53,627 bases of DNA from Desulfovibrionaceae bacterium (GTDB lineage Bacteria; Desulfobacterota; Desulfovibrionia; Desulfovibrionales; Desulfovibrionaceae): contig JACCQO010000016.1 in assembly GCA_015709205.1 (NCBI GenBank), forward strand, positions 1 to 53,627. Direction: 5' to 3'. This document shows, in pieces, positions 21,018-46,911 of this stretch. Position 1 is the stretch's first letter. Each line of letters begins with the position of its first letter. Position numbers and translations under genes: made by a program. Below the pieces are notes generated by a model. It worked only from the letters and a program-made list of their open reading frames with translations, was not told the origin of the DNA and ran no database searches.

Positions 21018-22340
21018 TCAGCCCGCGTCGCGCAATACGTCGAGGATTTCCAGCCGCGAGGCCTGCCAGGCCGGATAGGCTCCGGCCGCCAGGCCGAAGA
21101 GCGCGGAGAGCGCGCAGACCCCGGCGAGCACCGGCGCGTCGAAGACCGGCGGCAGGGACGCGGCCCGGAAAAGCACCGGGGCCAGGGCCATGAAGGCCGC
21201 CACGCCCAGCGCCCCGCCCGCGCCCGAGACCAGGGCCGCCTCCACCAGGAAGAGCTGCACGATGTCCCGCCGCCGCGCGCCCGTGGCCCGGCGCAGGCCG
21301 ATCTCCAGCCGCCGCGTGCGGACCATGAGCAGCATCAGCGACAGGATGCCCAGGGTGCCGATGGTGAAGGAGACCAGCGCGCCGGAAAGCCCCAGGGCCC
21401 AGACCAGCCGCAGCGTCTTGGCGCGCACCGCGCGCGCCTGGCTGGCCGGGAACACGGAAAAGTCGTCGGGCCGCACGGCCGGGCCGGAGTTTCTGGCGGA
21501 GCGTTTGCCCGAGCCCGGCGAGGCCTTGGCGCCCCATGCCCCGGCCCCCGTCCCGCCCGTCCCACTCGTCCCGTGGCGCGCGCGCAGCAGGGCCGTGGCG
21601 CTGCGCACGGCCTCGGCGGCCTGGGCGTCGGTCAGCTCGCCGCGCGCGCCCGCGCCCGCCAGGTGCGCGTAGATCCCATCCAGCCAGGTGCGCGGCACCA
21701 GGGTGCGCAGGAAGAGGTCCAGGGGCACGAAGACCTGCTCATCTTGATCCGCGCCCGAGAGGTCCGCGCCCTTTTCCTCCATGATCCCGACCACGGTCAG
21801 CGGCGTGCGGCCCACGGCCACGCTGCGCTCCAGGGCCGCCTCCGCCCGGCCGAAGAGCGTGGCGGCCACGGAGCGGCCGAGCACGCAGACCTTGCGGCCG
21901 CGCCCGGCCTCCAGGGGCGTGAAGAAGCGTCCGGTCTCCGGCGCGAAGGCGCGCACCTGTGGATAGTCCGGCGTGGTGCCCACCAGGCGGCAGGTGGTCT
22001 GCGTGCGGCCGTTGCGGATCGGGAGGGGTTCGGTGGCGTAGGGCGCGCAGGCCTCGACCCCGGGCAGGGCGCGCTCCAGGGCGCGGGCGTCCGCCGTGGT
22101 CAGGGTGTGCGCGGCGTTGCCGAGCACCGTGCCCGAGCGCAGGAAGGTGGCCTTGCCCGCCATGACCACCAGGAGGTTGGGCCCCAGGCGGCGGGTCTGC
22201 TGCTCGGCCTTGAGCGCCATGGCCTGGCTCAGGTGCAGGGTTCCGGCCAGCGACAGCGCGCCGAGCACGGCCCCGGCCAGGCCGGGCAGGAGCCGTTTCC
22301 AGTGCAGGGCCAGGGAGGCCAGGGTCACGCGTGCGTTCAT
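21018..22340 (-). CDS. MacB/FtsX-type ABC efflux permease (second of pair)
   Basis: A 440-residue ABC permease of the FtsX/MacB type. It has one N-terminal helix (about 14-34), a large periplasmic MacB_PCD-like domain and three C-terminal helices (LGLSGALVSFTIGTLGILS, LVEAALVSGAGGALGVAAFM, VLAGVCALSALFGLAAGAYP). RRLEIGLRRATGARRRDI is the conserved coupling segment before the third helix. A Gly/Thr-rich insert (G-T-S-G-T-G-G-T-G) interrupts the periplasmic domain. Its ATG overlaps the stop of the upstream permease gene. Last gene of the leftward operon; pairs with the preceding permease and ATPase. Confidence 0.85.
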   Translation of the reverse strand: MNARVTLASLALHWKRLLPGLAGAVLGALSLAGTLHLSQAMALKAEQQTRRLGPNLLVVMAGKATFLRSGTVLGNAAHTLTTADARALERALPGVEACAPYATEPLPIRNGRTQTTCRLVGTTPDYPQVRAFAPETGRFFTPLEAGRGRKVCVLGRSVAATLFGRAEAALERSVAVGRTPLTVVGIMEEKGADLSGADQDEQVFVPLDLFLRTLVPRTWLDGIYAHLAGAGARGELTDAQAAEAVRSATALLRARHGTSGTGGTGAGAWGAKASPGSGKRSARNSGPAVRPDDFSVFPASQARAVRAKTLRLVWALGLSGALVSFTIGTLGILSLMLLMVRTRRLEIGLRRATGARRRDIVQLFLVEAALVSGAGGALGVAAFMALAPVLFRAASLPPVFDAPVLAGVCALSALFGLAAGAYPAWQASRLEILDVLRDAG

Positions 22341-23566
22341 GCCTTGAGCGAGGCCAGCGGGTCCAGCCGCGCGGCGCGGCGCGCCGGACCCAGTCCGAAG
22401 AGCAGTCCCACGGCCAGGGCCGCGCCCAACCCCGTGGCGAACACCCGCCAGGAAACGGCGGTTTCCATGATGTCCAGGGCCGCGAACGCGGCGCAGGCCC
22501 CCACGCCCAGCGCCAGCCCGGGCAGCGCGCCCGCCAGGGTCAGGAGCAGGGCCTCCAGCAGGAGCTGGGCCAGGATGGACGAGCTCCGCCAGCCCAGGGC
22601 GCGTTTGAGTCCAATTTCCGGCCGCCGGTCGAGCACGGCCAGGGAGAGCAGGTTGGCGAGCACGAACCCGGCCACGCCCAGGGACGTGGCCGCCGTGAGG
22701 CTTAAAAAGCCGGTCATGCCCGAGGTCAGCGCCGACCAGTAGTCCAGGGCCTCGGCCGCGCCGAGCACGGTGAAGTCGTCCGGCCTGCCCGGGCCCAGGC
22801 CGTGCATCTCGCGCACGAAGGCGCGCAGCGCGGCCTTGTTCGCGTCCATGCGCTCGGGGCTGCCGTGGAAGGTCACGCGCAGCACGCGGTAGTTGTGCGG
22901 GTCCAGGCCGAAGCGGCGGATGGCCGTGGTGATGGGCACGATGATGCGGTCGTTGACGTCGCCGTGCGCCCCGGCCACGTCGCGCCGCTCCAGCACGCCG
23001 ACGACCAGGAACGGCGTGTTGCGCAGCACGATGGTCCGGCCCACGGGATCGGCCCGGCCGAAGAGCGCGCGCGCCGGGGTGGCGCCGAGCAGGCACACGC
23101 GCGCCGACGTGGCCACGTCCGGTTCGGTCAGGTCGCGGCCCTGGACGATGGTCCAGTCCCAGGCGCGGCAGTAGGACGCGGGCGAGCCGCTGACGAAGAG
23201 CGCGTTGTGCGTCGCGCCCTCGGCGCGCACGGTCACGCGCGTGATGGTCACGGACGGGGCCACCTGGTCCACGCCGGGCAGCCCGGTGGCCAGCCGGTCG
23301 GCCTCGGCGAAGGTGAAGGTGCGCGTGCGCTGGCCCGCCGGGCGGTTCTTGAGGTCCCCGCCGATGAGCACCACGCCCGAGGGGCCGTAGAGCGCGGCGT
23401 GCTCCAGGGCCTTTTGCCGCGCCCCGTCCATGGCCGCGCCGATGACCGTGAGCGCGGCGATGCCCAGGGCCATGGCCAGGCTGATGCACGCCGCGTGCGC
23501 GCGGTGCGCCCACAGGGCCCGGGCCCCGGCGCGCGCCAGCACCGGCAGTTGCCTAGCGCCGAACAT
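22337..23566 (-). CDS. MacB/FtsX-type ABC efflux permease (first of pair)
   Basis: A 409-residue permease with the same architecture: helix 1 (about 25-45, HAACISLAMALGIAALTVIG), a MacB-like periplasmic domain and three C-terminal helices. RRPEIGLKRALGWRSSSI is the coupling segment. The ATG overlaps the end of the ATPase gene by 14 bases. Two different FtsX permeases with one ATPase suggest a heterodimeric exporter of the LolCDE or MacB type. With the HlyD-like adaptor encoded just upstream, export of a small molecule, lipid or peptide from the periplasm is the likely job. Confidence 0.85.
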   Translation of the reverse strand: MFGARQLPVLARAGARALWAHRAHAACISLAMALGIAALTVIGAAMDGARQKALEHAALYGPSGVVLIGGDLKNRPAGQRTRTFTFAEADRLATGLPGVDQVAPSVTITRVTVRAEGATHNALFVSGSPASYCRAWDWTIVQGRDLTEPDVATSARVCLLGATPARALFGRADPVGRTIVLRNTPFLVVGVLERRDVAGAHGDVNDRIIVPITTAIRRFGLDPHNYRVLRVTFHGSPERMDANKAALRAFVREMHGLGPGRPDDFTVLGAAEALDYWSALTSGMTGFLSLTAATSLGVAGFVLANLLSLAVLDRRPEIGLKRALGWRSSSILAQLLLEALLLTLAGALPGLALGVGACAAFAALDIMETAVSWRVFATGLGAALAVGLLFGLGPARRAARLDPLASLKA

Positions 23567-24359
23567 CGCTCTCCACGCGTCCGTCGCGCAGCACGATGGT
23601 GCGCCGGGCGAAGGCCGCGGTGTCCCGGTCGTGCGTGGCCAGGATCACGGTGCGCCCGGCGGCGTTGATGGTCGCGAGCATCTCCATGATCCGCCGCCCG
23701 GTGGTCGCGTCGAGCTGGCCCGTGGGCTCGTCGGCCAGGATCAGGGCCGGGTCGTTGAACAGGGCGCGGGCCAGGGCCACGCGCTGCTGCTGCCCGCCGG
23801 AAAGCCGCCCGGGCCTGAAGGTCGCGCGCTCCTCCAGCCCCATGTCGCGCAGCAGGGAGCGCGCCCGCTCGCGCAGCGCGCGCGCGGATTCCGGCCGGTA
23901 GATGGAGGCCAGGAGCACGTTCTCCAGGGCCGTGGCGTAGGGCAGCAGGTGGAAGCTCTGGAACACGAAGCCCATGAGCCGGTTGCGCGCCGCGCTCTTG
24001 GCGTCGTCGTCCAGGCGCGCGGTGTCGTCGCCGCGCAGCAGGTAGGTTCCGGCCGTGGGCCGGTCCAGCAGGCCGAGCACGTGCAGCAGCGTGGACTTGC
24101 CCGAGCCCGACGTGCCCTGCAGGGCCACGAATTCGCCCTCGGCCACGTCCAGGCTCACGTCCTCCAGCGCCGCGACCTCGCGGTCGCCCTGGCGGAAGCG
24201 CTTGCCCAGGGCGCGCAGGCGGATCAGGGGGGCTGGCGCGGTTCCCCGCGCGACTGCGCCGGTCACGCCGGTCACGCCGGTCGCGCCGGACGCGAGGCCC
24301 GCCCCGGGCCCGGGGGCGGAAGCGGCCTCCGTCGCGGGAGAGAAAACGTCCTGGGCCAC
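23553..24359 (-). CDS. ABC transporter ATPase, MacB/LolD type
   Basis: A 268-residue ATPase. Walker A GTSGSGKST, Q-loop VFQSFHLLPY, signature LSGGQQQRVALARAL and Walker B LILADEPTGQLD are intact, followed by the switch histidine in LATHD. The start is taken as GTG 24359, four bases after the adaptor gene's stop, with GGGAAG upstream. About 40 residues of low-complexity sequence then precede the domain, including a nine-base repeat (V-T-G units). It drives the two FtsX permeases downstream. A start nearer the conserved domain cannot be excluded. Confidence 0.88.
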   Translation of the reverse strand: MAQDVFSPATEAASAPGPGAGLASGATGVTGVTGAVARGTAPAPLIRLRALGKRFRQGDREVAALEDVSLDVAEGEFVALQGTSGSGKSTLLHVLGLLDRPTAGTYLLRGDDTARLDDDAKSAARNRLMGFVFQSFHLLPYATALENVLLASIYRPESARALRERARSLLRDMGLEERATFRPGRLSGGQQQRVALARALFNDPALILADEPTGQLDATTGRRIMEMLATINAAGRTVILATHDRDTAAFARRTIVLRDGRVESDVRR

Positions 24360-24363
24360 GGCG

Positions 24364-25632
24364 TCACTTCCCGTCCGCCAGGACCAGCTTAACGGCCACC
24401 ACGTCGTCCTCGGCCAGGCCTTCGAGCACCTCGCAGCGCTCGCGGCCCATGACCCCGAGCTTCGGGGTCGCGGCGAGCACCGCGCCGTTCGTCCCGCCCC
24501 CGTCCGTCCCCTTTCCGCCGGTTTTCCCAACCACGAAGACCACCTGCTTGCCGCCCACCCACTTGAGCGCGGCGTTGGGCACCGAGAGCGCATTTTCGCG
24601 CACCCGGGCCGTGATCCGGCAGCGCGCGCTCATCTCCGGGCGCAGGAGTTCGGCCGTGGCGCGGTCCAGCCGCACGGTGGCCAGGTAGTAGACCAGGTCG
24701 TCGCGCAGTTCGGGCTCGGGCGCGATGCGCTCCACCGCGCCGGAAAAGGTCCGGTCCGGGTAGCCGTCCACGGCGAAGTCCACCGGGCTGCCCGGGTGCA
24801 CGCGGGTCACGTCGTTCTCGTCCACGAAGATCTGCAGTTCCAGCCGCGCCGGGTCCACGATGGTGATCAGGTTGGCGACCTGCAGTCCGGCGACCACGGT
24901 CTCGCCCTCCTGCGCGGCCACGCGGCTGACCACGCCGTCGATGGGGCTGGTGATCTGGGTGTAGGTCTGGCGCACGGCGGCGGTCTGCAGGGCCGAGGCG
25001 GCCGTGGCCACGTCCTCGCGGGCCTTTTCCAGGGCGCGGGCCTGCTCGGCGCGCAGCCGGGTCAACCGCGCGGCGCGCACGCGCTCGTCGTTGGCGGCCA
25101 CGTCGGCGTCGGCCAGGGCCGAATCCAGGGCGTCGCGCGAGGTCAGCCGCTGGGCCTCCAGCTGGCGCACACGGTCCAGGTTCAGGGCCGCGTAGCGCGC
25201 CGTGGCCCGGGCCGCGGTCAGCTCGGCCGCGGCCTCGTCGATCTCCAGGGGGTAGACGGACTCCACGCGGCCCAGCTCGGCTCGGGCGTGGCGCAGTTCG
25301 GCCTCGGCCTCGGCGCGCTCGGCGGCCAGCTCGCGGTCGTCGATCTCCGCGATGAGGTCGCCCTCGCGCACGGCTTGGCCCACGCGCACGCGCATGCGCT
25401 TGATGCGGCCCGTGGCCTGGCAGCCGACCTTGACGATGGCTCCGACCTCGGGCTTGATCGTGCCCGTGGCCGAAAGCTCCTCGCGCACGGTGGCGCGCTC
25501 CACGCGCGCGGTCTGCAGCACGCGGGGCTCGGCCGCGTCCGACCCGTGCGCGCGCAGCAGCCAGATGGCGGCGGCGGCCAGGCCGAGGAACGCGAGCAGC
25601 AGGGCCAGACGCGAAAGGCGGGGCATGCGCAT
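24364..25632 (-). CDS. Periplasmic adaptor, HlyD/MacA type
   Basis: A 422-residue membrane-fusion protein. An N-terminal anchor (LALLLAFLGLAAAAIWLL) is followed by a barrel-sandwich half-motif (IVKVGCQATGRIKRMRVRVG), a long alpha-hairpin rich in Ala, Glu and Arg (about 95-225), the returning lipoyl half (ITSPIDGVVSRVAAQEGETV) and beta-barrel domains. It should bridge the inner-membrane FtsX/ATPase exporter to an outer-membrane channel, which is not encoded here. AAGGA precedes ATG 25632. Sits between the TonB-system TPR gene and the MacB-like genes in one leftward operon. Confidence 0.88.
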   Translation of the reverse strand: MRMPRLSRLALLLAFLGLAAAAIWLLRAHGSDAAEPRVLQTARVERATVREELSATGTIKPEVGAIVKVGCQATGRIKRMRVRVGQAVREGDLIAEIDDRELAAERAEAEAELRHARAELGRVESVYPLEIDEAAAELTAARATARYAALNLDRVRQLEAQRLTSRDALDSALADADVAANDERVRAARLTRLRAEQARALEKAREDVATAASALQTAAVRQTYTQITSPIDGVVSRVAAQEGETVVAGLQVANLITIVDPARLELQIFVDENDVTRVHPGSPVDFAVDGYPDRTFSGAVERIAPEPELRDDLVYYLATVRLDRATAELLRPEMSARCRITARVRENALSVPNAALKWVGGKQVVFVVGKTGGKGTDGGGTNGAVLAATPKLGVMGRERCEVLEGLAEDDVVAVKLVLADGK

Positions 25633-25643: not shown

Positions 25644-27329
25644 TCAGTTTTTCGCCGTGCGGCGCGCGGCGGCGCTTGCGCCGGACCGGTCCGCCGGGTC
25701 CGGCGGGGCCTTTGCGGTCCGGTCGGCGTTGCGGTCGGCCGTTTTCTCGACGTTGCGAGCGGCGGCCGGTTCGTCCGCCCCGTCGGCGATCCGGTCGGCG
25801 CTTTCCGGGTTCGCCAGGGGCTCGACCACTTCGAGCGCCTGGCGGGCCAGGCGGTTGTCGTCGCCCGCGCGCGCGACGCGCGCGGCGCGGCGGAAGTGCG
25901 CGGCGGCCGAGGGCCAGTCCGCGCGGTCCCAGGCCGCGAAGCCCAGGAGCAGGTCCGGTTCGCCCAGGTCCGGGTTCTCGCGGCCGCAGGTTTCCAGAAC
26001 CTCGCGCGCGGCCTCCGCGCGGCCGAAGTCCAGGAGCAGGCGGCCCCGCAGCAGGCAGGCGGGCCGGTCCGCTGCGGCTTTGGTCCCCGTGGCGGCGCTG
26101 CGGCCGGTCCCGGCGGTGCGCGCCAGCGCGGCGGCGCGCAGGGCATCGTCCCCGCGCCGGGCCCGGGCGTAGGTCCGGGCGATGTCGGCGAAGACGTCCG
26201 TGCCGTTTTCGTCCGCGTTTTTCCCGTTCGCAGTCTTTTCGTCCGGGCTTTTTTGGGCCGGGCTTTTTTGGGCCTCGCCGTTCCCGTTCCTTCCCGCGCC
26301 GTTCCTGTCTGTGTCGTGCCCTTGCGGGGCGTCCGGGCCCGTTGCGCCGGGGCGCGCGTTTCCGCGTTCCCGGGCCCCGTACTCCCGCTCCAGGGCCTGC
26401 GCGGCCAAGGCAGGCACGTTGGCCGCCTGGTACAGGGAGGCCAACGTGCGTTGGTCCTCGGCCGCACCCCGCCTCTCCGGGTGGTCCGGCGGGCTCGGCG
26501 GGGCCAGGGCCAGGGCCGTCTCCAGGGCGCAGGCCGCGCCCGGCCAGTCCTCGCTCCCCAGCCGGGTCTGGGCCAGCAGGCGCCAGTCCTCGGCCTCGCC
26601 CGGGTCGTTTTTCAGGGCGGCCAGGAGCAGCCCCTCGGCCTCGCGCCAGCGTTCCAGGGCCAGGCAGGCGTAGATGTCCAGCCGGTCCAGGTCGCGGCGC
26701 GCCGCGCGCACGGCGGCGGCGTCCGCTTCCGAAGCCTCGGGCAGGGCCTCTTTGGCGCGCGTCAGCACGGTGCGGCAGCGTGCGTAGTCCCCGGCGCGGT
26801 ACAGGGACGCGGCCGCGTTGCGCAGCAGGTCGGCGCGCGCGCCGCGTTCGGCCTTCGCCTCCCCCGCGCCCTTCGCCGCCAGCTCGGCCGCCCGCAGAAA
26901 GACCTCGGCCGCGCGCGAAAACTCCTCGGCCGCGGCCAGGGAGGCGGCCAGGTTGCGGGCCATGTCCAGGTTTTCCGGCTCCAGGGCCAGCCCTTGTTCG
27001 TAGGCGCGCGCGGCCTCGGCCGGGCGGCCGTCCAGGTGCAGGGCGTTGCCCAGCAGGAGCAGGGCCGTGGCCCGCGCCGGGCCCTCGGCCTTGGCCAGCG
27101 GGGCCAGGGTCGTTTGCGCGGCGCGGTAGTCCTGGGCGTCCATCTGCTGCGAGGCCTGGCGCAGCACGCGCAGGGCCGACGGCGGCAGGCCGCCCTTGGC
27201 CTGGGCCGGGTCAGGCGCGAGCGCCAGCCCCAGCGTCAGCCAGAGCGTCACGGGCAGCGCAAGGAGCGCGGAGCGGCAACGGTGGCGCGGAAGGGGCGGC
27301 CGGGCGGCCCGGCGTTCGGTCGCGTTCAT
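25644..27329 (-). CDS. TPR-repeat periplasmic protein of the TonB2-type system
   Basis: A 561-residue protein. A signal peptide (LLALPVTLWLTLGLALAPDPAQA) is followed by many tetratricopeptide-like helix pairs, best seen at residues 45-150 (for example AEAARAYEQGLALEPENLDMA) and 190-300. A low-complexity linker near 320-370 contains short duplicated units (SPAQK). The C-terminal 60 residues are disordered. Vibrio TonB2 operons end with a TPR gene in the same place, needed for some receptors. The start overlaps the tonB stop as ATGA. Confidence 0.8.
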   Translation of the reverse strand: MNATERRAARPPLPRHRCRSALLALPVTLWLTLGLALAPDPAQAKGGLPPSALRVLRQASQQMDAQDYRAAQTTLAPLAKAEGPARATALLLLGNALHLDGRPAEAARAYEQGLALEPENLDMARNLAASLAAAEEFSRAAEVFLRAAELAAKGAGEAKAERGARADLLRNAAASLYRAGDYARCRTVLTRAKEALPEASEADAAAVRAARRDLDRLDIYACLALERWREAEGLLLAALKNDPGEAEDWRLLAQTRLGSEDWPGAACALETALALAPPSPPDHPERRGAAEDQRTLASLYQAANVPALAAQALEREYGARERGNARPGATGPDAPQGHDTDRNGAGRNGNGEAQKSPAQKSPDEKTANGKNADENGTDVFADIARTYARARRGDDALRAAALARTAGTGRSAATGTKAAADRPACLLRGRLLLDFGRAEAAREVLETCGRENPDLGEPDLLLGFAAWDRADWPSAAAHFRRAARVARAGDDNRLARQALEVVEPLANPESADRIADGADEPAAARNVEKTADRNADRTAKAPPDPADRSGASAAARRTAKN

Positions 27330-27973
27330 GAGAGTTGGAAGCGGATGGGCAGGACCATCCAGGTCGGCACGGGCTCGCCGCCCAGGCTGGCCGGGCGGAA
27401 GACCCACTGTTGCACGGCGGAGAGCACCGCGTGGTCGAACACGCCGCTGGGCTCGGCCTCGACCACCCGGGGCTGCTGCACGCGGCCGCGCGCGTCCACC
27501 AGGAAGCGCACCGTGACCGTGCCGGTGATGCCCCTGCGCTTGGCCGCGTGCGGGTACACGGGCTCCACGCGGCGCAGCAGGGTGGGCGGCTGGTCCACGT
27601 CGCCCAGCTCGAAGACGTCGCCCGGGCCGGGCGCGGCCAGCGGGACCAGGGCCACGTCCGTGGCCACGCTGGGGCTGAAGGAGGGCAGGTCCAGCTTGAG
27701 GCGCGGCGGCGCGGGCCGGGGCGCGCGCAGGGCGGGCGCGCGCAGGACCAGGGTGCGCGGCTGCTTGGGCGGGTGCGGCTTTTCCTCGGGTTCGCGTTCG
27801 GGCCTGGTGCGCGGCGGCGGGGCCAGGTTCAGGGGCAGGGCGGCCAGGGTCGGCGCGAGCGGCTCGTCGCGCGCCGAAAGATGGGCCACGGCCAGGCAGA
27901 GCAGCGCGTTGATGGCCACGGCCGCGCAGACGGCCGCGAGCAGCCGCCGGGTGCGGCGCGCGCGCGCGCTCAT
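27326..27973 (-). CDS. tonB: TonB energy transducer (TonB2-like)
   Basis: A 215-residue inner-membrane protein. One N-terminal helix (LLAAVCAAVAINALLCLAVA) is followed by a short Pro/Arg/Lys spacer (about 50-95) and the TonB C-terminal domain (about 130-215) with the conserved VEPVYPHAAKRRGITGTV and AVLSAVQQWVFRPA segments. It transmits proton-motive force from ExbB/ExbD to outer-membrane receptors, presumably including the one encoded divergently at 37439. Coupled by ATGA overlaps to exbD before it and the TPR gene after it. The spacer is short, as in TonB2 proteins. Confidence 0.92.
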   Translation of the reverse strand: MSARARRTRRLLAAVCAAVAINALLCLAVAHLSARDEPLAPTLAALPLNLAPPPRTRPEREPEEKPHPPKQPRTLVLRAPALRAPRPAPPRLKLDLPSFSPSVATDVALVPLAAPGPGDVFELGDVDQPPTLLRRVEPVYPHAAKRRGITGTVTVRFLVDARGRVQQPRVVEAEPSGVFDHAVLSAVQQWVFRPASLGGEPVPTWMVLPIRFQLS

Positions 27974-28380
27974 GGCCGCCTCGCCGCCACGCTGACGTTG
28001 CGCACCCCGGCCAACCGGCAGCCGTCCAGCACGCGGATGACCAGGCCGGTGTTGGAGTCCTCGTCCGCGGCGATGACCACGGAGCCGTCCGGAAATTCGG
28101 CCAGGAACCGCTCCATGTAGGCGCGCACCGAGCGCACGTCGATGACCCGGCCCTCCACGTGCACCGTGCCCTTGGCGGTCACGGCCACGATGACGTTGGC
28201 CTTGTCCAGGGTCTGGGCCGTGTGCGCCTGGGGGCGGCGCACGTCCACCCCGGCCTCGCGCACGAAGCTGGTGGTCACGATGAAGAAGATCAGCAGGATG
28301 AAGACCATGTCGATGAGCGGGGTCATGTCCAGCCCCGAGGCGCGCGTGCGCCGCGCCCGGCCGGTGCGCAGGGAGTTCAT
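27970..28380 (-). CDS. exbD: ExbD biopolymer transport protein
   Basis: A 136-residue protein with one membrane helix and a periplasmic domain. The helix carries the essential proton-coupling Asp24 in DMTPLIDMVFILLIFFIV. The periplasmic part (about 50-136) ends VRNVSVAARRP. It forms the TonB motor with ExbB. Start and stop overlap both neighbours as ATGA. Confidence 0.95.
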   Translation of the reverse strand: MNSLRTGRARRTRASGLDMTPLIDMVFILLIFFIVTTSFVREAGVDVRRPQAHTAQTLDKANVIVAVTAKGTVHVEGRVIDVRSVRAYMERFLAEFPDGSVVIAADEDSNTGLVIRVLDGCRLAGVRNVSVAARRP

Positions 28381-29009
28381 GCGCCCTCCGTGGCGGCGGC
28401 GCGCCGGACCGTGGCCCTGCCGTTTGTTTCGCCGCCGGGCTCGACGTGCGTCTTGACGTCGGGCCCGGCGCCAGGCTCGGCGCAGGTCGCCGCGTCCGGT
28501 CCGCCCTCGCGCGCCAGCACGGCGCGTTCGGCGCGGGTGCGGAGCATGGCCGCGCGGCGGCGCAGGTGCGCGCCGATGACCAGCCCCGGCAGCGCGGCCA
28601 CGAGCCCGAACTGGGTGGTGATCAGCGCCTGGGAGATGCCCGCCGAGAGCGCGCGGGCGTTGCCCGTGCCGAACTGGCGGATGACGTCGAAGGTGGCGAT
28701 CATGCCCGTGACCGTGCCCAGGAGCCCGAGCAGTGGGCAGGCCGCGGCCAGGGTCAGGATGGTGCCCACGTGGCGCTCCACCCCGTCGGCCTGGCGCGCG
28801 AGCAGGCGGCGCATGGTCTCGGGCGCGCAGTTGCCCCCGGCGGCCAGGAGCCGCGCCAGGGTCGGCCCCAGGGTCCGGGACATGCGCCGCATCTCAAGGG
28901 ATTTCTTGACGATCAGCGTCCACATCCAGGCCGAGGCCGCGAGCAGCGGAACCATCACCGGCCCGCCGTCGGCCAGGTGTTCCAGGGTGTGGTGCAGCGC
29001 CTGCAGCAT
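28377..29009 (-). CDS. exbB: ExbB/TolQ/MotA-family proton channel (short ExbB2)
   Basis: A 210-residue motor subunit. Helix 1 is about residues 18-36 (VMVPLLAASAWMWTLIV). The conserved TolQ/ExbB core AACPLLGLLGTVTGMIATF and ALITTQFGLVAALPGLVIGA give helices 2 and 3. Sequence after about residue 170 is a low-complexity tail. The gene lies 212 bases after the long ExbB gene, with a 14-bp tandem repeat between them. Partner of ExbD and TonB in the TonB2-like unit. Confidence 0.92.
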   Translation of the reverse strand: MLQALHHTLEHLADGGPVMVPLLAASAWMWTLIVKKSLEMRRMSRTLGPTLARLLAAGGNCAPETMRRLLARQADGVERHVGTILTLAAACPLLGLLGTVTGMIATFDVIRQFGTGNARALSAGISQALITTQFGLVAALPGLVIGAHLRRRAAMLRTRAERAVLAREGGPDAATCAEPGAGPDVKTHVEPGGETNGRATVRRAAATEGA

Positions 29010-33704: not shown

Positions 33705-34130
33705 GTGCTGTGCTCCTGGGTGCGGCGTCCCGGCCTGCGGGCCGGCGGTCCGGCCGGGTCGGGCGCGGCGCGGGACGGTGCGATCGCGCGCCCTGTGCTC
33801 GTGCGTCCTGCGGCTGTGCGTCCTTCAAGAATGTTTGCTCGGGCGCGCCGTGTTCGGGCGGCCTGCGCGCGGGCGTCGGCGCGCCGACATGCCCGTCGGG
33901 CGCGTTCCGCGATACCGGCAAGGCGGGGTCGGACCCCACCCGGTGGCTGCGCCGTGACCCGGGCCGCCCGGCCCGCTTTTCGTTTTCCTCGACTCGCCTG
34001 CCGCGTCCCGGGCCCGCTTCCCTGCGTCTTCTTCCGGCAAGAGCGGCAATCGTCCGGCGCGCCGGGGCGATCGCGCAAGCCGGGCCTCCCGGCGCGCAAA
34101 ATATCACCCGTGCGTGTCATTGTTTTTGAT

Positions 34131-37417: not shown

Positions 37418-37438
37418 GCGATGATTTGGAGACGAGCC

Positions 37439-39708: not shown

Positions 39709-42700
39709 ATGCGCATCGCAGCCATCGTGTGGAACAGCCACGCCGGGGCCCTGGCACGGGCCGCGGCCCAAGTGGAAGAGGTCGAGCTCGCGCTCTATTC
39801 CTCCAAGACCCTGGAAACCGAGCCCGAGCGCTGCGCCGAGGCCCTGGAAAAACTGCGCGCGGCCGACGCGGTCTTCCTCTACCGCTCCACGGAATCGTTC
39901 TGGGAGACCATGGAGGAGGACATCCGCGCCCTGGGCGAGCGCACGCCCGTGGTCTGCCTGAGCTACGACCCCACCTACTGGACCCTGTCCTCGGTCTCCC
40001 CGGGGATCCTGGAGGTCGCCAACCGCTACATGACCTACGGCGGCGCGGACAACGTGGCCAACCTGCTGCGCTATCTGGCGGCCAATTTCACGCCCGGCGA
40101 CTCCCCCGCGCGCACGGCCGAACGCGTTGCCGCCTGCGCCGCGCCCGCGCCCGTGCCCTGGGACGGGCTCTACCACCCCGACGCGCCCCTGCCGCACTTC
40201 GACGCCGTGGAGGACTATCTGCGCTGGTACGAGATCTACGCCGAGGGCCGGGGCCTGGAAAACGCGCCCGTGGTCGGCCTGCTCATGGGCCGCTACTTCT
40301 GGGTCAACGGCGTCACCGACGTGGAGGACGCGCTGGTCCACGAATTCGAAACGCGCGGCTTCCGCGTGCTCTGCGCCTTCTCCAACTCCATCAAGGACGA
40401 CGCCCTGGGCAACAAGGGCGCCCTGGCCTGGACCGAGGAAGCCTTCCTGGGGCCGGACGGCAAGAGCCGGGTGGAACTGCTCGTCAAGCTGCAGCCCTTC
40501 TTCCTGGGCAGCCGCCGGGGCCAGGAGGCCAACGCCGAGTGCGCGGCGGCCGACGGCGCGGCCCTGTTCAAGCGGCTGAACGTGCCCGTGCTCCAGCCCG
40601 TGTTCTCCTCGGCCAAGACGGTGGAGGAGTGGGAGGCCGACCCGCAGGGGCTCGGCGCGGAAGTGGCCTGGGGCGTGGCCATGCCCGAGTTCGAGGGCGT
40701 CATCGAGCCCTTCTACCTCGGCGGGGGCAAGCGGTTCGAGGACGACGGCTCCGGCGCGTCCATCGAGCGCCGCGTGCCGCACGCCGAGCGCTGCGCCAAG
40801 CTGGTGCGCCGCGCCGCGCGCTGGGTGAGGCTGCGCCGCGTGCCCGTGGCCGAGCGCAGGATCGCCTTCGTGCTGCACAACAATCCCTGCGCCTCGGTGG
40901 AGGCCTCGGTGGGCGGCGCGGCCAAGCTGGATTCCCTGGAGTCCACGGCGCGCATCCTGCAAGCCATGCGCGACGCGGGCTATCGCGTGGACCCGCCTGC
41001 CAGCGGCGAGGAACTGATCGGCACGATCATGGAGCGCAAGGCCGTCTCCGAGTTCCGCTGGACCACGGTGGACGAGATCGCGAGAAAGGGCGGCGCGCTG
41101 GCGCGCCTCGACGCCGCGCACTACCGCAAATGGTTCGACACCTTTCCCCGGGCCGTGCGCGAGCGCATCTGCGCGGCCTGGGGCAATCCCCCGGGCGAGG
41201 AAGTCAACGGCGTGCCCGCGGCCATGGTCCACGAGGGCGAGATGCTCGTCACCGGCGTGTCCTACGGCAACGCCGTGGTCTGCGTGCAGCCCAAGCGCGG
41301 CTGCGCGGGCCCACGCTGCGACGGCCGGGTCTGCAAGATCCTCCACGACCCGGACATCCCGCCGCCGCACCAGTACCTGGCCACCTACCGCTGGCTCATG
41401 GACGACTTCGGCGCGCACGCCATCGTGCACGTGGGCACGCACGGCAACCTGGAATTCCTCCCGGGCAAGAGCGTGGGTCTGTCCGAATCCTGTCTGCCGG
41501 ACATCGCCATCCACGACTGCCCGCACCTGTACATCTACAATTCCGACAACCCGCCCGAGGGCACCATCGCCAAGCGCCGCTCCTACGCCACCCTGGTGGA
41601 CCACATGCAGACCGCCATGGTCCGCGGCGGGCTCTACGAGGAGCTGGAGGAGCTGGACCGGCTGCTCGGCGACTACGAGCGCGCGCGCCACGCCGATCCC
41701 GCGCGCGCGCACCAGCTCGAACACCTCATTCGGGAAGGCGTGGCCGCCGCGAACCTGGAATCGCAGGTCAAGCCGCGCGAAGGCGAGGAATTCTCCGCCT
41801 TTGCCGCGCGCGTGCACGAGGCCCTGGGGCTGATCCGCAACACGCGCATCTGCGACGGCATGCACGTCTTCGGCTCCCTGCCCGAGGGCGAGCGGCGCAC
41901 GGAGTTCGTCTACAACATCGTGCGCTACGACGCGGGCGACGAACGCTCCCTGCGGCGCACCCTGTGCCGCGCCCTGGGGCTGGACCTGGGCGCGCTGCTG
42001 GCCGAGCCCGGGGCCGTGGACGCGCGCTATCTGCGCAGCCACGCCGACCTCCTGGAAGAGATCGAGCGGCTCGGCGCGGCCTACGTGGGCGCGGTGCTGG
42101 CGGCGGACGAGAACGGCGGCGCGGCGGGCCTGCCCGCGCGCGTGGCCGCCCTGGGCGAAGGGCGCGACGCGGCCATCGCGCGCGCCCTGGAGACGGACGA
42201 AAATCTCGCGGGTGAACTCGCGCCCTTCACCCCGCGCATCCTGGACATCGATCGGCGCATGAAGGATTCGCGCGAGATCGACGCCCTGCTCGGCGCGGCG
42301 GCCGGGGGCCACGTGCCCGCCGGGCCCTCGGGCGTCATCAGCCGGGGCCGCGAGGACATCCTGCCCACGGGCCGCAATTTCTATTCCCTGGACCCCCGGC
42401 GCATCCCGACCAAGGCCGGGTACCGCGTGGGCGACCGGCTGGCCGCCGCGCTGGTGGAAAAGCACCTGGCCGAGGAGGGCCGTTATCCCGAGAACGTGGC
42501 CCTGTTCTGGATGTGCAACGACATGATGTGGGCCGACGGCGAGGGCATGGGCCAGATCCTTTCGCTCCTCGGCGTGCGCCCGCGCTGGCTCTCCAACGGC
42601 TGGGTGCGCGGCTTCGACGTCATCCCGCTGGAAGAGCTCGGCCGCCCGCGCATCGACGTGACCATCCGCGTCTCCGGGCTGCTGCGCGACAGCTTCCCCG

Positions 42701-43680
42701 AGGCCATGGACTTCGTGGACGAGGCCGTGCGCGCCGTGGCCGCGCTGGACGAGCCCCTGGACCGGAACTTCGTGCGCAGGCACGCCCTGGAGAAGGTGGG
42801 CGACGAAACCGAGCCCGACGCGGCCGCCGAGGCCTGGCGGCGCGCCACGCTGCGCCTCTTCTCGGCCAAGCCCGGCACCTACCAGGCCGGGGTCAACCTC
42901 GCGGTCTACGCCTCGGCCTGGAAGGACGAGAAGGACCTCTCGGACATCTTCATCTATTGGAACAGCTTCGCCTACGGCAAGGGCGTGTTCGGCGAAAAGA
43001 GCCCGCGCGAGCTGGAATCGAGCCTGAAGACCGTGGACGTGACCTACAACAAGGTCGTCTCCGACGAGCACGACCTCTTCGGCTGCTGCGCCTACTACGG
43101 CTCGCACGGCGGCATGACCGCCGCGGCCCGCGCGGTCAAGGGCGCGCCCGTGCGCACCTACTACGGCGACACGCGCGAGCCCGAGCGCGTGCAGGTCCGC
43201 GACCTGGCCGACGAGGTCCGCCGCGTGGTGCGCACCAAGCTGCTCAACCCCAAGTGGATCGAGGGCATGAAGCGCCACGGCTACAAGGGCGCGGGCGACA
43301 TCTCCAAGCGCGTGGGCCGCGTCTACGGCTGGGAGGCCACCACCGAGGAGGTGGACGACTGGATCTTCGACGACATCGCCAAGACCTTCGTGCTCGACGA
43401 GGAGAACCGCGAGTTCTTCCGCGAGCACAACCCCTGGGCCCTGGAGGAGATCGGCCGCCGTCTGCTGGAGGCCGAGAGCCGGGGGCTCTGGCAGGCCGAT
43501 CCCGAGGTCCTCGACGGGCTGCGCGAGGCCTATCTGGAGATGGAGGGGTGGCTGGAGGAGGACATGGGCGAGGTTCAGGGCGAGTTCCAGGGCGGGGCCG
43601 TGGACGTGCTGCGGCCCGAGGACGTGGAACAGTGGAAGGCCATGATGGACGAGATGGCGCGCGAGCGCGCCGGGCGCTGA
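39709..43680 (+). CDS. cobN: CobN-family chelatase large subunit
   Basis: A 1323-residue protein of the CobN/magnesium-chelatase H family, full length. Recognisable blocks are RIAFVLHNNPCASVEASVGG, GNAVVCVQPKRGC, the conserved HVGTHGNLEFLPGKSVGLSE near residue 575, NSDNPPEGTIAKRRSYATLV, and the C-terminal VVSDEHDLFGCCAYYGSHGG. No signal peptide, so cytoplasmic. With AAA+ partners it inserts cobalt into hydrogenobyrinate diamide in aerobic B12 synthesis. Anaerobes with a CbiK-type chelatase do not need that, and CobN relatives also occur in heme-uptake (HmuS) loci. The receptor/ABC genes beside it favour a role in handling an imported tetrapyrrole. Metal and direction are undecided. Confidence 0.92.
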   Translation: MRIAAIVWNSHAGALARAAAQVEEVELALYSSKTLETEPERCAEALEKLRAADAVFLYRSTESFWETMEEDIRALGERTPVVCLSYDPTYWTLSSVSPGILEVANRYMTYGGADNVANLLRYLAANFTPGDSPARTAERVAACAAPAPVPWDGLYHPDAPLPHFDAVEDYLRWYEIYAEGRGLENAPVVGLLMGRYFWVNGVTDVEDALVHEFETRGFRVLCAFSNSIKDDALGNKGALAWTEEAFLGPDGKSRVELLVKLQPFFLGSRRGQEANAECAAADGAALFKRLNVPVLQPVFSSAKTVEEWEADPQGLGAEVAWGVAMPEFEGVIEPFYLGGGKRFEDDGSGASIERRVPHAERCAKLVRRAARWVRLRRVPVAERRIAFVLHNNPCASVEASVGGAAKLDSLESTARILQAMRDAGYRVDPPASGEELIGTIMERKAVSEFRWTTVDEIARKGGALARLDAAHYRKWFDTFPRAVRERICAAWGNPPGEEVNGVPAAMVHEGEMLVTGVSYGNAVVCVQPKRGCAGPRCDGRVCKILHDPDIPPPHQYLATYRWLMDDFGAHAIVHVGTHGNLEFLPGKSVGLSESCLPDIAIHDCPHLYIYNSDNPPEGTIAKRRSYATLVDHMQTAMVRGGLYEELEELDRLLGDYERARHADPARAHQLEHLIREGVAAANLESQVKPREGEEFSAFAARVHEALGLIRNTRICDGMHVFGSLPEGERRTEFVYNIVRYDAGDERSLRRTLCRALGLDLGALLAEPGAVDARYLRSHADLLEEIERLGAAYVGAVLAADENGGAAGLPARVAALGEGRDAAIARALETDENLAGELAPFTPRILDIDRRMKDSREIDALLGAAAGGHVPAGPSGVISRGREDILPTGRNFYSLDPRRIPTKAGYRVGDRLAAALVEKHLAEEGRYPENVALFWMCNDMMWADGEGMGQILSLLGVRPRWLSNGWVRGFDVIPLEELGRPRIDVTIRVSGLLRDSFPEAMDFVDEAVRAVAALDEPLDRNFVRRHALEKVGDETEPDAAAEAWRRATLRLFSAKPGTYQAGVNLAVYASAWKDEKDLSDIFIYWNSFAYGKGVFGEKSPRELESSLKTVDVTYNKVVSDEHDLFGCCAYYGSHGGMTAAARAVKGAPVRTYYGDTREPERVQVRDLADEVRRVVRTKLLNPKWIEGMKRHGYKGAGDISKRVGRVYGWEATTEEVDDWIFDDIAKTFVLDEENREFFREHNPWALEEIGRRLLEAESRGLWQADPEVLDGLREAYLEMEGWLEEDMGEVQGEFQGGAVDVLRPEDVEQWKAMMDEMARERAGR

Positions 43681-43731: not shown

Positions 43732-44760
43732 GTGCGGCATTACACCTATCCCTTCACGGCCATCGTGGGCCAAGAGAAGATGAAGACGGCCCTGGTCCTC
43801 AACCTCGTGGACCCGACCATCGGCGGGGTGCTCATCCGCGGGGAAAAGGGCACGGCCAAGTCCACGGCCGTGCGCGGCCTGGCCCTGCTGCTGCCGGAGA
43901 TGGCCGCCGTGGCCGGGTGCCGGTTCGCCTGCGACCCGGCGGCGGGCGACTGCCTCTGCCCGGACTGCGCCGCGCGCGTGGCCGCGGGCGAGGCCCTGGA
44001 GACCGAGCGCCGCCGCGTGCGCGTGGTGGACCTGCCCGTGGGCTCCACCGAGGACCGCGTGCTCGGCACCCTGGACCTGGAATGGGCCATCAAGAAGGGC
44101 GAGCGCCGCTTCGAGCCCGGCATCCTGGCCGAGGCCAACCGCTCCATCCTCTATGTGGACGAGGTCAACCTGCTCGACGACCACATCGTGGACGTGCTCC
44201 TGGACGCGGCGGCCATGGGCGTGAACACCGTGGAGCGCGAGAGCGTGTCCTTTTCGCACCCGGCGCGCTTCGTGCTCGTGGGCACCATGAACCCGGAGGA
44301 GGGCGAGCTGCGGCCCCAGCTCCTGGACCGTTTCGGCCTGTGCGTGGAGGTGCGCGGGATCATGGACCTGGAGGCGCGCGTGGAGCTGGTGCGCCGCCGC
44401 GCGGCCTTCGAGGCCGACCCGGCCGGGTTCTGCGCCGCGCGCGAGGCCGAGGAAAGGCGTCTGGGCGAGCGCATCGTGGCCGCGCGCGAGCGCGTGCCGT
44501 CCGTGGAGGTCTGCGACGACGTGCTGCGCAACGTGGCCGAGATCGCCATCGGCATGAACGTGGACGGCCACCGCGCCGACCTGGTCATGGTCCGCGCGGC
44601 GCGGGCGCTCGCGGCCCTGGAGGGCCGGGAGGCGGCCACGCGCGAGGACGTGAAACGCGCCGCGGAAATGGCCCTGCCGCACCGGATGCGCAAGAAGCCC
44701 TTCCAGAAGATCGGCCTGGACGCGGACCGCGTGGACGCCATCCTCGGCGCGGCCTCCTGA
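43732..44760 (+). CDS. BchI/ChlI-type AAA+ chelatase subunit
   Basis: A 342-residue ATPase. GTG start with AAGGAG nine bases upstream. Walker A is R-G-E-K-G-T-A-K-S-T, Walker B ILYVDEVNLLDDHIVD, and sensor 1 VLVGTMNPEEGELRPQLLDR with the arginine finger region following. After Walker A a cysteine cluster (C-R-F-A-C, then C-L-C-x-x-C) probably binds zinc or a cluster, as in other BchI proteins. It should form hexameric rings with the next gene product and drive the CobN-like subunit by ATP hydrolysis. Confidence 0.93.
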   Translation: MRHYTYPFTAIVGQEKMKTALVLNLVDPTIGGVLIRGEKGTAKSTAVRGLALLLPEMAAVAGCRFACDPAAGDCLCPDCAARVAAGEALETERRRVRVVDLPVGSTEDRVLGTLDLEWAIKKGERRFEPGILAEANRSILYVDEVNLLDDHIVDVLLDAAAMGVNTVERESVSFSHPARFVLVGTMNPEEGELRPQLLDRFGLCVEVRGIMDLEARVELVRRRAAFEADPAGFCAAREAEERRLGERIVAARERVPSVEVCDDVLRNVAEIAIGMNVDGHRADLVMVRAARALAALEGREAATREDVKRAAEMALPHRMRKKPFQKIGLDADRVDAILGAAS

Positions 44761-44781
44761 TCCGGTCCCGTGAGGACAGGC

Positions 44782-46911
44782 ATGACCGTTTTTTCTTCAG
44801 GCTCGCCCAGCCCGGCCAATCCGGCCGGTCCGGCCGGTCCGGCGGCGTCGAAAGCCTCGGCGCGTCGCCTGGTCTATCCCTTCACGGCCCTGGTGGGCCA
44901 GGAGCGCATGCGCACCGCCCTGGTGCTCAACGCCGTGTGCCCGGCCATCGGCGGGGTGCTCGTGCGCGGGCAGAAGGGCACGGCCAAGTCCACGGCCGTG
45001 CGCGGCCTGGCCGCGCTGCTGCCCGAGATCGAGGTGGTCGGGGGCTGCGCCTTCGGCTGCGACCCGGACGGCGTGCTCTGCGACGCCTGCCGCGCGCGCG
45101 CGGACGCGGGCGAACGGCTGCCCCGCGCCCGGCGCGTCACGCGCGTGGTGGACATGCCCCTCGGGGCCACCGAGGACCGCGTGGCCGGCACCCTGGACCT
45201 GGAGCACGCCGTGCGCCTGGGCCGCCGCGTGCTGCAGCCCGGCCTGTTGGCCCTGGCGCACCGCGCCATCCTCTACGTGGACGAGGTCAACCTCCTGCAC
45301 GACCACATCGTGGACCTGGTCCTGGACGCGGCGGCCACGGGCATCAACGTGGTCGAGCGCGAGGGCGTGTCCGCCGCGCACCCGGCGGCCTTCATCCTCG
45401 TGGGCACCATGAACCCCGAGGAGGGCGAGCTGCGGCCCCAGCTTCTGGACCGCTTCGGCCTGTGCGTGGAGGTGGCCGCGCCCACGGACGTGGACACGCG
45501 CATGGAGGTGGTCCGCCTGCGCGACGCCTTCGAGCGCGACCCCGTTGCCTTCGCCCGGCACTGGGAGCCGGAGCAGGAGCGTCTGCGCGCGGCCATCGTC
45601 CAGGCCCGGCGTATCCTGCCCCTGGTGCGCATGCCCGAGGACCTGCAACGCAAGGGCTGCGAGCTGTGTTTGGAGGCCAACGTGGCCGGGCACCGCGCGG
45701 ACGTGACCCTGCGCCGCGCGGCCCGCGCCCTGGCCGCCCTGGCCGACCGCCAGGAGGTCCGGCTGGAGGACGTGCTCCTGGCCGCCGAGCTGGTGCTCGC
45801 CAGCCGCGCCCGACCCGCGCCCCCGCCGCCGCCCGAGCAGGACGAGCCCGAGCCGGACGAGGAGCACGAGCACGAGGAACAGCAGGAACAGGACGAATCC
45901 GAGGAAGAGCAGCCCCAAGAGGAGCATCCCGAAGACGAGCGCCCTCGGGAAGAGCAGCGCGGCCAGGGGGCCGAGCCCGAGGAGCGCGAGGCCGAGGAGC
46001 GCGACGAGCCCCAGGAGAACGAGGGCGAGGAACAGGCCCCGCCGCGCGCGGCGCGCGAAACGGTCTTCGACGTGGGCGAGCCCTTCCGCGTGCGCGACGT
46101 GCCCCTGGCGCGCGACCGCGTGCCGCGCACCGGCCCGGGCAAGCGTACGCGCTCGCGCACGCCGCTCAAGGCCGGGCGCTACGTGCGCAGCCGCCGCGAC
46201 CCCAAGCCGTCCGACCTGGCCCTGGACGCCACCCTGCGCGCGGCCGCCCCGCACCAGCGCGCCCGCGCGGGCACCCATCCGGGGCTCGCCCTGGCCGTGG
46301 AAACCGGCGATTTGATGCGCAAGGTGCGCGAAAAGCGCGTGGGCAGCTGCATCGTGCTGGCCGTGGACGCCAGCGGGTCCATGGGCGCGGCGCGGCGCAT
46401 GGTCGAGGCCAAGGGCGCGGTGCTCTCGCTCCTGCTCGACGCCTATCAGAAGCGCGACACCGTGGCCTTCGTGGCCTTCCGCGGCCAGGAGGCCGAACTG
46501 CTCCTGCCGCCCACCGGCAGCGTGGAGCTGGCCTACCGCCATCTCGAAGAGCTGCCCACGGGCGGACGCACGCCGCTGTCCGACGGGCTGTCCATGGCCT
46601 ATCAAGTGCTCGACGCGCGGCTGCGCAAGGACCCGGCCACCTTCCCGGTGCTCGTGCTCGTGTCCGACGGCCGGGCCAACGTCGCCAGCTTCGGCGGCAA
46701 GCCCCTGGCCGAGGCCATGGAGGTGGCCGACGCCGTGCGCGAGGACGGACGCATCCGCGCCGTGGTCGTGGACGTGGAGAAGCCGGGGCTGGTCAGCTTC
46801 GGCCTGGCCGGGGAGCTGGCCGCGCGCATGGGCGCGCGCTGCTACAAGGTGGAGGAGCTGCGCGCGGACACCCTGGTGCGCGTGCTGCGCGAGGAAATCC
46901 TGCCGGAGTAG
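44782..46911 (+). CDS. BchD/ChlD-type chelatase subunit (AAA+ plus VWA)
   Basis: A 709-residue protein. Its N-terminal AAA+ domain (about 35-345) is closely related to the preceding subunit and keeps Walker A (RGQKGTAKST), Walker B ILYVDEVNLLHDH and the C-x3-C...C-x2-C cluster. A strongly acidic, Glu/Gln/Pro-rich linker (about 350-435) follows. The C-terminal von Willebrand A domain has the MIDAS motif DASGSMG and GGRTPLSDGL. This is the classic BchD/CobT-like middle subunit that docks the motor to the chelatase. ATG 44782 (GAGGA upstream) is preferred over a GTG four codons earlier. A terminator repeat follows. Confidence 0.93.
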   Translation: MTVFSSGSPSPANPAGPAGPAASKASARRLVYPFTALVGQERMRTALVLNAVCPAIGGVLVRGQKGTAKSTAVRGLAALLPEIEVVGGCAFGCDPDGVLCDACRARADAGERLPRARRVTRVVDMPLGATEDRVAGTLDLEHAVRLGRRVLQPGLLALAHRAILYVDEVNLLHDHIVDLVLDAAATGINVVEREGVSAAHPAAFILVGTMNPEEGELRPQLLDRFGLCVEVAAPTDVDTRMEVVRLRDAFERDPVAFARHWEPEQERLRAAIVQARRILPLVRMPEDLQRKGCELCLEANVAGHRADVTLRRAARALAALADRQEVRLEDVLLAAELVLASRARPAPPPPPEQDEPEPDEEHEHEEQQEQDESEEEQPQEEHPEDERPREEQRGQGAEPEEREAEERDEPQENEGEEQAPPRAARETVFDVGEPFRVRDVPLARDRVPRTGPGKRTRSRTPLKAGRYVRSRRDPKPSDLALDATLRAAAPHQRARAGTHPGLALAVETGDLMRKVREKRVGSCIVLAVDASGSMGAARRMVEAKGAVLSLLLDAYQKRDTVAFVAFRGQEAELLLPPTGSVELAYRHLEELPTGGRTPLSDGLSMAYQVLDARLRKDPATFPVLVLVSDGRANVASFGGKPLAEAMEVADAVREDGRIRAVVVDVEKPGLVSFGLAGELAARMGARCYKVEELRADTLVRVLREEILPE

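Follow-up and report, generated by a model that had tools for sequence, protein, structure and literature searches.

In the HmuS and BtuS systems of Bacteroidota (hmuYRSTUV), one locus is reported to encode a CobN-family protein together with a TonB receptor and an ExbB-type motor, and the metal is taken from the imported ring (PMC12583661, PMC6460266). Many archaeal CobN-like proteins are described as being of unclear function (PMC12583661), and the CobN-like BtuS proteins of Methanosarcina barkeri are reported to change with the iron and sulfur source (PMC10846266). A cobN-exbB-exbD-tonB cluster on plasmid pSZ77 of Trichlorobacter (Geobacter) lovleyi also places CobN beside TonB receptors and a motor, and its role was left open by the authors (PMC3403914). 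The locus described here lies on a stretch of 53,627 bp from a Desulfovibrionaceae bacterium of sulfate-reducer type (contig JACCQO010000016.1 of assembly GCA_015709205.1, positions 1 to 53,627 of the forward strand; hereafter the window). It consists of two divergent operons that contain a receptor/ABC importer, a CobN-BchI-BchD chelatase, an ABC-2 exporter, a TtpC/TonB2 motor and a MacAB-type exporter. The importer and the chelatase, often with the ABC-2 exporter, form a core that is conserved in relatives, and this core is tentatively assigned to the uptake and demetallation of a metal tetrapyrrole.

All of the 12 leftward and seven rightward genes given in the first-pass annotation were found again with Pfam and NCBIfam. 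Neighbours within an operon overlap by at most 14 bp or are separated by at most 215 bp, and this spacing fits two operons. The rightward operon (+ strand) begins with a periplasmic binding protein (34252..35337, start at 34222 or 34252; Pfam Peripla_BP_2, no NCBIfam cut-off reached), a FecCD-type permease (35334..36482; detected by NCBIfam only, with best matches of the BtuC/FhuB type, all below cut-off) and a FecE-type importer ATPase (36482..37417; Pfam ABC_tran). These are followed by a TonB-dependent receptor (37421..39589; Pfam Plug and barrel, best NCBIfam model TIGR01785 at 229.7 bits with a cut-off of 316.85), the CobN-type chelatase large subunit (39709..43680; Pfam CobN-Mg_chel, 1272 bits), a BchI-type AAA+ subunit (43732..44760; best NCBIfam matches TIGR02442/TIGR02030, below cut-off) and a BchD-type AAA+/VWA subunit (44770..46911; TIGR02442 at 799.5 bits, above the cut-off of 779.45). 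The leftward operon (- strand) opens with the two genes of the ABC-2 exporter, which encode a DrrA/NodI-like ATPase (32856..33704; Pfam ABC_tran, best NCBIfam match DrrA, below cut-off) and a permease (32085..32828; Pfam ABC2_membrane), respectively.

Matches to the window CobN, with all CobN types and the window's own genome counted, come from 11 of 150 family genomes (E up to 1e-30), 19 of 349 class genomes (1e-60) and 72 of 395 genomes of the phylum sample (1e-100); the samples overlap. The neighbourhoods of CobN loci were compared using the window proteins as queries. Apart from the window, the census comprises 58 loci with a CobN of this type (cut 1e-8, split loci of one genome joined), many of them on short contigs. 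FecCD was detected in 48 of these loci, a TonB receptor in 49, the binding protein in 45 and a BchI/BchD-type gene in 46, the last figure meaning at least one such gene because matches of the two subunits cross-react. TonB or ExbD was found in 14 loci, DUF3450 in two and CbiC in one, and neither the MacB permease nor HlyD was found in any. The background consisted of 20 arbitrary 20-kb regions at round coordinates (eight genomes supplied two regions and four supplied one) and does not amount to a formal random sample; FecCD, receptor, binding protein, ABC-2 permease and BchI/BchD matches occurred in 0/20 of them. ABC ATPase cross-matches were present in four of the 20 regions, one of which also gave GAPDH and MCP matches. 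A divergent ABC-2 layout like that of the window recurs in eight genomes of the same family (L002-L007, G122 and G020), and the ABC-2 pair is located directly between FecE and CobN in nine more distant loci. The ABC-2 pump is counted in the system because of these two arrangements. The phylum-wide core is composed of the TonB receptor, the binding protein, FecCD/FecE and CobN-BchI/BchD, often with the ABC-2 exporter. The joint occurrence of import, chelatase and ABC-2 genes that was proposed from the window is thus upheld by the census against its background. The two operons are not one conserved machine.

A single CobN was found in the window genome. In a tree of 66 sequences, made by a quick method with some long branches flagged and omitting 14 CobN pieces shorter than 1100 aa and named duplicates, this protein falls in a 51-row clade (support 100) beside a 10-row clade that holds all three B12 reference CobNs (Deinococcus, Sphingobium and Halorussus). 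The HmuS heme dechelatase and BchH fall outside the 51-row clade. A C-x4-C-x4-C insert is present in all 51 clade rows and in none of 15 other chelatases. A CC pair at the loop where HmuS has LDH occurs in 44 of the 51 rows and in 0/15 others, and six of ten canonical CobN rows have Cys at the first place of the pair. The catalytic His column holds His in 48 of 51 clade rows and in all 15 other chelatases; the residue before it is T in 50 clade rows and S in one, and K in nine of the ten canonical rows. The corresponding residues of the window protein are Cys532, Cys537 and Cys542 of the insert, His578 and Cys1126-Cys1127, and a hydrophobic N-terminus was not found on it. His578 lies in the motif HVGTHG, which agrees with the HmuS catalytic-His pattern HFG(T/A)HG. 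The HmuS motif LSLDHxxEFMGG is not in the window CobN, which has a stretch with the CC pair there instead; two HmuS rows carry LSLDHVYEFMGG at that position. In the alignments printed, the solved CobN 7c6o and ChlH have a gap at the three-cysteine insert, as do two HmuS rows. Cys542 stands 36 residues before His578 and Phe502 of HmuS stands 36 residues before His538, and by this count the insert borders a loop that in HmuS is reported to cover the active site (PMC12583661). The insert may hold a metal or a [4Fe-4S] cluster.

Two family models separate the clade from canonical CobN. The aerobic model TIGR02257 (cobalto_cobN; cut-off 822.05) gives 791.8 for the window CobN and 643-778 for three other clade members (trimmed), all below the cut-off, and 962, 962 (trimmed) and 1177 for canonical CobNs, all three above it. 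NF004646, named cobaltochelatase CobN, gives 1825.8 for the window against a cut-off of 1468; one of the three other clade members (trimmed) and none of the canonical CobNs exceed this cut-off. Two of 14 control genomes, which were not told apart, also score above it. NF004646 seems to model this subfamily of putative function. From each of the genomes G420, G363 and G705, the tree contains both a clade member and a canonical CobN, so the jobs of the two types probably differ. An ordinary B12 CobN was rejected on the TIGR02257 result and the separate clade, and a plain HmuS on the missing LSLDHxxEFMGG motif. CobN genes of the clade are broken into separate frames (<1100 aa) in L039, L043 and L051-L059; the CobN of L055, which was inspected closely, consists of 799 and 493 aa in different frames. 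A programmed frameshift, or a split of the gene that is stably kept, may lie behind this. L060, L063 and L074 each contain two CobN genes of different type; in L063 and L074 the two are close neighbours, and their three-cysteine member is without the catalytic His.

The NikR box of delta-proteobacteria is given as GTGTTAC-N13/14-GTAACAC, also in reversed form, with a hydrogenase among the predicted targets (PMC545781). Upstream regions of 53 loci (52 relatives and the window) were scanned; L064 was too short and was left out, and L035 and L036 represent one genus counted twice. A first scan revealed a perfect box at L070:1469 and a 13/14 box at L012:727 (gap 14), with a background of two sites of at least 12/14 in 786 kb of 40 comparison loci. 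With the direct consensus, four of the 53 regions reached 12/14, a count equalled by 0/300 shuffles and 0/300 permuted half-sites. With both orientations and a gap of 13, at least 12/14 was reached in six regions (L040, L058, L065, L070, L035 and L036), compared with 0-2 at other gaps, at most 2 for 400 permuted half-sites and 1/40 control regions. In L035 and L036, perfect reversed boxes lie ~50 bp before CobN itself. A degenerate half-site, set later, reached at least 13/14 in ten regions at gap 13 and in 0-3 at 17 other gaps; four of the ten belong to the same-family genomes L002, L028, L030 and L076. The reversed, looser and 15-bp scans were devised after half-sites had been seen, and the counts with the published consensus are the fairer test.

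In six genomes, the exact direct pattern has three matches, upstream of hydG, hydE and a TonB receptor, and its control, the same pattern read backwards, has one match each in two of the six. The exact reversed pattern has two matches, one in the window control region and one inside a 407-codon frame in G197, and its control has none. In L070 the regulator gene nikR adjoins BchD, and after it come CbiM/CbiQ/CbiO-type genes preceded by the perfect box; in L072 nikR is located just upstream of the cluster. Among the other loci searched for it, nikR occurred only in the two that had been retrieved for this gene. It was found in nine of ten genomes, the window's own included, and not in G384. NikR linkage is well supported in several relatives. 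A further sequence, TTGTGC[T/C]ACG, is present in the divergent control regions of the window (34281-34290) and of several same-family genomes (L002 at ~5920, L003, L004, L006, L007 and L016), with GTATGC 13 bp on in Humidesulfovibrio-type control regions, and is perhaps a degenerate NikR site.

The two operons of the window share one control region (33705..34251, between the divergent genes), as the first-pass annotation had it; the region measures ~520-550 bp and is AT-rich only in its last ~200 bp. GC content is 0.348 at 34100-34300, and nowhere in the 53.6 kb are 200-bp windows lower in GC than in this stretch. A NikR-like reversed pair, ATAGCAC-N15-GTGCTAC, lies at 34261..34289 (half-sites 34261-34267 and 34283-34289). 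It may overlap the start of the binding-protein gene and is inside that gene with either longer reading. Its scores are matched by 11/500 shuffles of the region and 18/500 of the AT-rich part, and it is the sole match to RTARCACN{13,15}GTGYTAY, a pattern drawn after the site had been seen, in the 4.25-Mb genome. A Fur-like site, ATGAAAACGATATGCAT, is located at 34222..34238 and agrees at 14/17 positions with the published delta-proteobacterial Fur consensus WTGAAAATNATTTTCAW; it is matched by 0/500 shuffles of the region and 7/500 of the AT-rich part. L039 alone carries both NikR and Fur signals. No sigma-70-like promoter was found at 33600-34320, and no Rfam match in the window. The control region thus appears ambiguous, and nickel and iron would both be candidates for the metal in the window.

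The remaining genes of the leftward operon (- strand) form a motor cassette and a second exporter. The gene order of the Vibrio TonB2 system is DUF3450-TtpC-ExbB-ExbD-TonB-TPR. The same order is present in the window, where the genes encode a DUF3450 protein (30823..32052; Pfam DUF3450, 197 bits), a TtpC-type long ExbB with a DUF3450-like N-terminus (29222..30826; Pfam MotA_ExbB, DUF3450 weak and below cut-off), ExbB (28377..29006; Pfam MotA_ExbB), ExbD (27970..28380; Pfam ExbD), TonB (27326..27973; Pfam TonB_C) and a TPR protein (25644..27329; Pfam TPR). It also occurs in 20 further loci, where the TPR match follows TonB in most and is missing in some. The MacAB-type exporter consists of a HlyD/MacA-type membrane fusion adaptor (24364..25632; Pfam HlyD_3 and HlyD_D23), a MacB-type ABC ATPase (23553..24275; Pfam ABC_tran, start codon uncertain with several possible) and two MacB/FtsX-type permeases (permease 1 at 22337..23566 and permease 2 at 21018..22340; both Pfam MacB_PCD and FtsX).

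The window genome has three TtpC motors (contigs C110, C84 and C52). Of the 20 motor loci retrieved, 18 come from relatives and two from the window genome itself, and none contains CobN. None of the ten other CobN genomes of the family sample gives a full-length TtpC match, and in two of them, G027 and G122, the match is weak and partial. Beyond the family, L033 and L075 place a DUF3450-TtpC motor next to this CobN type, and L083 and L087 place one next to a more distant CobN. The partnership of TtpC motor and CobN recurs and is optional; as a general cassette, the TtpC/TonB2 motor occurs next to genes of various kinds. The MacA-type adaptor was matched in 92 of 150 family genomes and in none of the 58 CobN loci. 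Both the TtpC motor and the second exporter were probably added locally. Import powered by a motor dedicated to it, as had been suggested, is not borne out by a genome with three such loci, and the inclusion of the motor and the MacAB-type exporter in one system is not supported by the neighbourhoods. By the comparison proposed to refute the earlier view, the operons do separate in relatives, except at the ABC-2/TonB end. A Fur-controlled Desulfovibrio cluster with pqqL, ABC and exbB-exbD-tonB genes (PMC545781) may be a relative of the left operon. The locus L094, which has its own binding protein, FecCD and FecE, carries a 12/14 NikR-like box upstream of DUF3450-TtpC; it is the sole control region that reaches 12/14 and is possibly a nickel uptake operon with a TtpC motor.

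The gene content suggests metal acquisition around a distinct class-I chelatase by a pathway of import, stripping and ring export, which is favoured here tentatively. The TonB-dependent receptor would take a metal tetrapyrrole, most likely of nickel and perhaps derived from F430, across the outer membrane, and the binding protein with FecCD-FecE would bring it on into the cytoplasm. There, CobN, whose cysteines would lie at the catalytic cleft, and the ATP-using BchI-BchD would strip the metal, and the ABC-2 pump would export the stripped ring. The TtpC/TonB2 cassette would power import in this genome as an interchangeable part. ATP use is predicted because BchI and BchD are present, removal is preferred to insertion because uptake genes and a pump are present and no ring-making neighbours were seen, and nickel is preferred because of NikR in relatives. 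We infer on these grounds a nickel compound in this genome, a tetrapyrrole cargo, metal removal and export of the ring. In the unassigned frames of 62 loci, predicted with a rough gene finder, no ring-making neighbour recurs; only two groups reach four loci each, one receptor-like and one Gate-domain. F430 is the nickel tetrapyrrole of methanogens, and it or a breakdown product would be an obvious candidate for the cargo. To our knowledge, no pathway for scavenging nickel from tetrapyrroles has been described. A wider and more doubtful proposal is that the whole clade comprises ATP-driven nickel dechelatases with a cysteine site (possibly [4Fe-4S]), under NikR control, with which anaerobes would scavenge F430 or other nickel tetrapyrroles shed by methanogens and export the ring. 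The first-pass annotation had the cargo processed by the chelatase and the stripped ring, the metal or a secreted chelator leave by the two exporters; the gene linkage speaks for the ABC-2 exporter and against the MacAB-type one (0/58 loci). It had left open whether ring, metal or a chelator is concerned; NikR in relatives points to nickel, and the Fur-like site of the window keeps iron in consideration.

Several results weigh against nickel removal by this system. The first NikR scan (at least 11/14, gap 13 or 14) found nothing in the window or L002, and a box of at least 11/14 at gap 13 is absent in 41 of the 53 regions. At 11/14 the direct count is equalled by 4/300 shuffles and 2/300 permuted half-sites, the two-orientation count of 12 is equalled or beaten by 1/400 permuted half-sites, and 4/40 control regions reach this score, one of them 12/14. 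The NikR-like pair of the window has a 15-bp spacer, where 13 or 14 is published, and its pattern was set after the site had been seen. NikR could also govern the operon for a reason other than a nickel cargo. The ABC-2 permease was found in only 20 of the 58 loci; those of L090 and L012, noted when neighbourhoods were compared, fall outside the 1e-8 census cut. The direction of the reaction cannot be read from sequence, and class-I chelatases with BchI/BchD insert metals (PMC7689651). This last point, with the same NikR and exporter evidence, would suit a metallophore cycle in which nickel is taken up as a different chelate, CobN-BchID inserts nickel into or remodels an endogenous tetrapyrrole, and the carrier secreted by ABC-2 is re-imported. 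No ring-making gene was seen to recur in the 62 loci examined with the rough gene finder, and such a cycle is considered improbable. A heme-iron pathway is a more serious rival, though an unlikely one: heme, or some other iron porphyrin, would be the cargo, CobN-BchID would act like HmuS but driven by ATP, and ABC-2, here perhaps together with the MacAB-type pump, would export the protoporphyrin. HmuS, a CobN homologue, was shown to be a heme dechelatase and works without ATP (PMC12583661), protoporphyrin is exported by MacAB-TolC in Escherichia coli (PMC4263509), and the GTHG motif of the window is as in HmuS. The window CobN, however, is without LSLDHxxEFMGG and has BchI/BchD partners. The heme model is the best match of all ten receptors of the system, every one of which scores below the curated cut-off, and of four of ten comparison receptors, three of which lie in CobN loci (L022, L042 and L051); receptor type was given light weight. 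The Fur-like site of the window is rarer in shuffles than the NikR-like pair. Fur-like sites of at least 14/17 occur in six of the 53 regions, two of them at 15 and none at 16. Shuffles give a mean of 1.1 such regions, with 0/60 reaching six, and permuted forms a mean of 1.7, with 1/60 reaching six; overall, one to four of 60 permuted forms do as well. Because of the window site and this mild excess, the nickel reading, and with it the F430 proposal, was lowered and the heme-iron one raised. E. coli-type Fur boxes are weak in the control region and in seven relatives, and nikR and the perfect NikR boxes in relatives do not fit iron.

Uptake of a corrinoid, with late cobaltochelatase metal handling that feeds a neighbouring cbiC step, is less likely again than the heme-iron pathway. 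The cbiC gene (47323..48045, + strand; Pfam CbiC), whose operon membership is uncertain, starts 411 bp downstream of BchD. It is the sole CbiC found in the genome and lies near the cluster also in L002, which is the one case among the 58 other loci. The NF004646 score and the best permease matches, to BtuC models and below cut-off, agree with a cobalt or vitamin B12 role, as do B12 riboswitches in three of the 28 loci searched; both cbiC and the riboswitches count against nickel. The cobalamin riboswitches are located at 13870-14054 in L042, 958-1145 and 1749-1936 in L062 and 4836-5021 in L051. The one in L042 precedes a second receptor that fits a B12 receptor model best, whereas the ten receptors of the CobN operons do not. 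The window has no such Rfam match, and its CobN falls below TIGR02257 and apart from the B12 clade. CbiK is encoded on another contig of the window genome, so a cobalt-insertion role for CobN would be unneeded. Least likely of all is one integrated machine of both operons with the motor and both exporters, as first proposed. Tight operon spacing and the motor beside this CobN type in L033 and L075 are consistent with it; motor and CobN separate within the same family, and the version that includes the MacAB-type pump was rejected on the census. The import, stripping and export of a nickel tetrapyrrole is retained as the preferred reading at its tentative strength. Past cbiC, the window (48276-53627) contains genes for a histidine phosphatase, a MobA-like/HD protein and an XdhC protein, all leftward; the histidine phosphatase could be of the CobC kind.

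Compared with described systems, the locus differs from each in composition. In the Vibrio TonB2/TtpC system the motor genes have the order seen in the window, and in Desulfovibrionaceae the cassette is general and stands beside varied genes. The delta-proteobacterial NikR regulon (nikMQO, hydAB) shares the operator with its 7-bp half-sites, 13/14-bp gap and both orientations; in the parts of its description that were available, no CobN/TonB operon is listed, and one Desulfotalea psychrophila target cluster is given as "?" (PMC545781). The available parts of a nickel/cobalt survey (PMC2667541) and of the RegPrecise paper (PMC3840689) likewise mention no such operon. No title or listing joining CobN, TonB import and NikR was found in a literature search that was not aimed at NikR or nickel, and an earlier prediction is possible. 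The CobN of T. lovleyi pSZ77, unlike that of the window, is without the three cysteines and sits with DUF2149 and DUF2162 genes; DUF2149 also occurs beside an HmuS, as in an hmu-like locus. This plasmid locus (L120, NC_010815, 18773-30182) includes the DUF2149/DUF2162 genes and a TonB motor and lies beside B12 genes.

The aerobic cobaltochelatase CobN, with CobST or ChlID, belongs to the same superfamily and has the same kind of ATPase partner. Nine of ten canonical rows have GKHG; the window CobN differs in having GTHG and three extra cysteines, falls in a separate clade and scores below the TIGR02257 cut-off, and the window cluster has no B12 gene except the nearby cbiC. HmuS is described as membrane-anchored, with no ATP partners and no three-cysteine insert (PMC12583661). 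The window CobN has no hydrophobic N-terminus and is accompanied by BchI/BchD and FecCD import, with NikR links in relatives, and the adjacent BchI and BchD genes would argue against an ATP-free working like that of HmuS. If the proposed function is true, many Thermodesulfobacteriota contain proteins whose job is not that of the cobaltochelatase CobN for which they are annotated. The question raised by the 2025 HmuS paper on CobN-like proteins of unclear function would then have an answer that can be tested, and methanogens could share F430 as a nutrient with the organisms around them. Should the metal be iron, the system would still be distinct from HmuS, as a cytoplasmic dechelatase that has ATP-using partners and an importer and ring exporter of its own.

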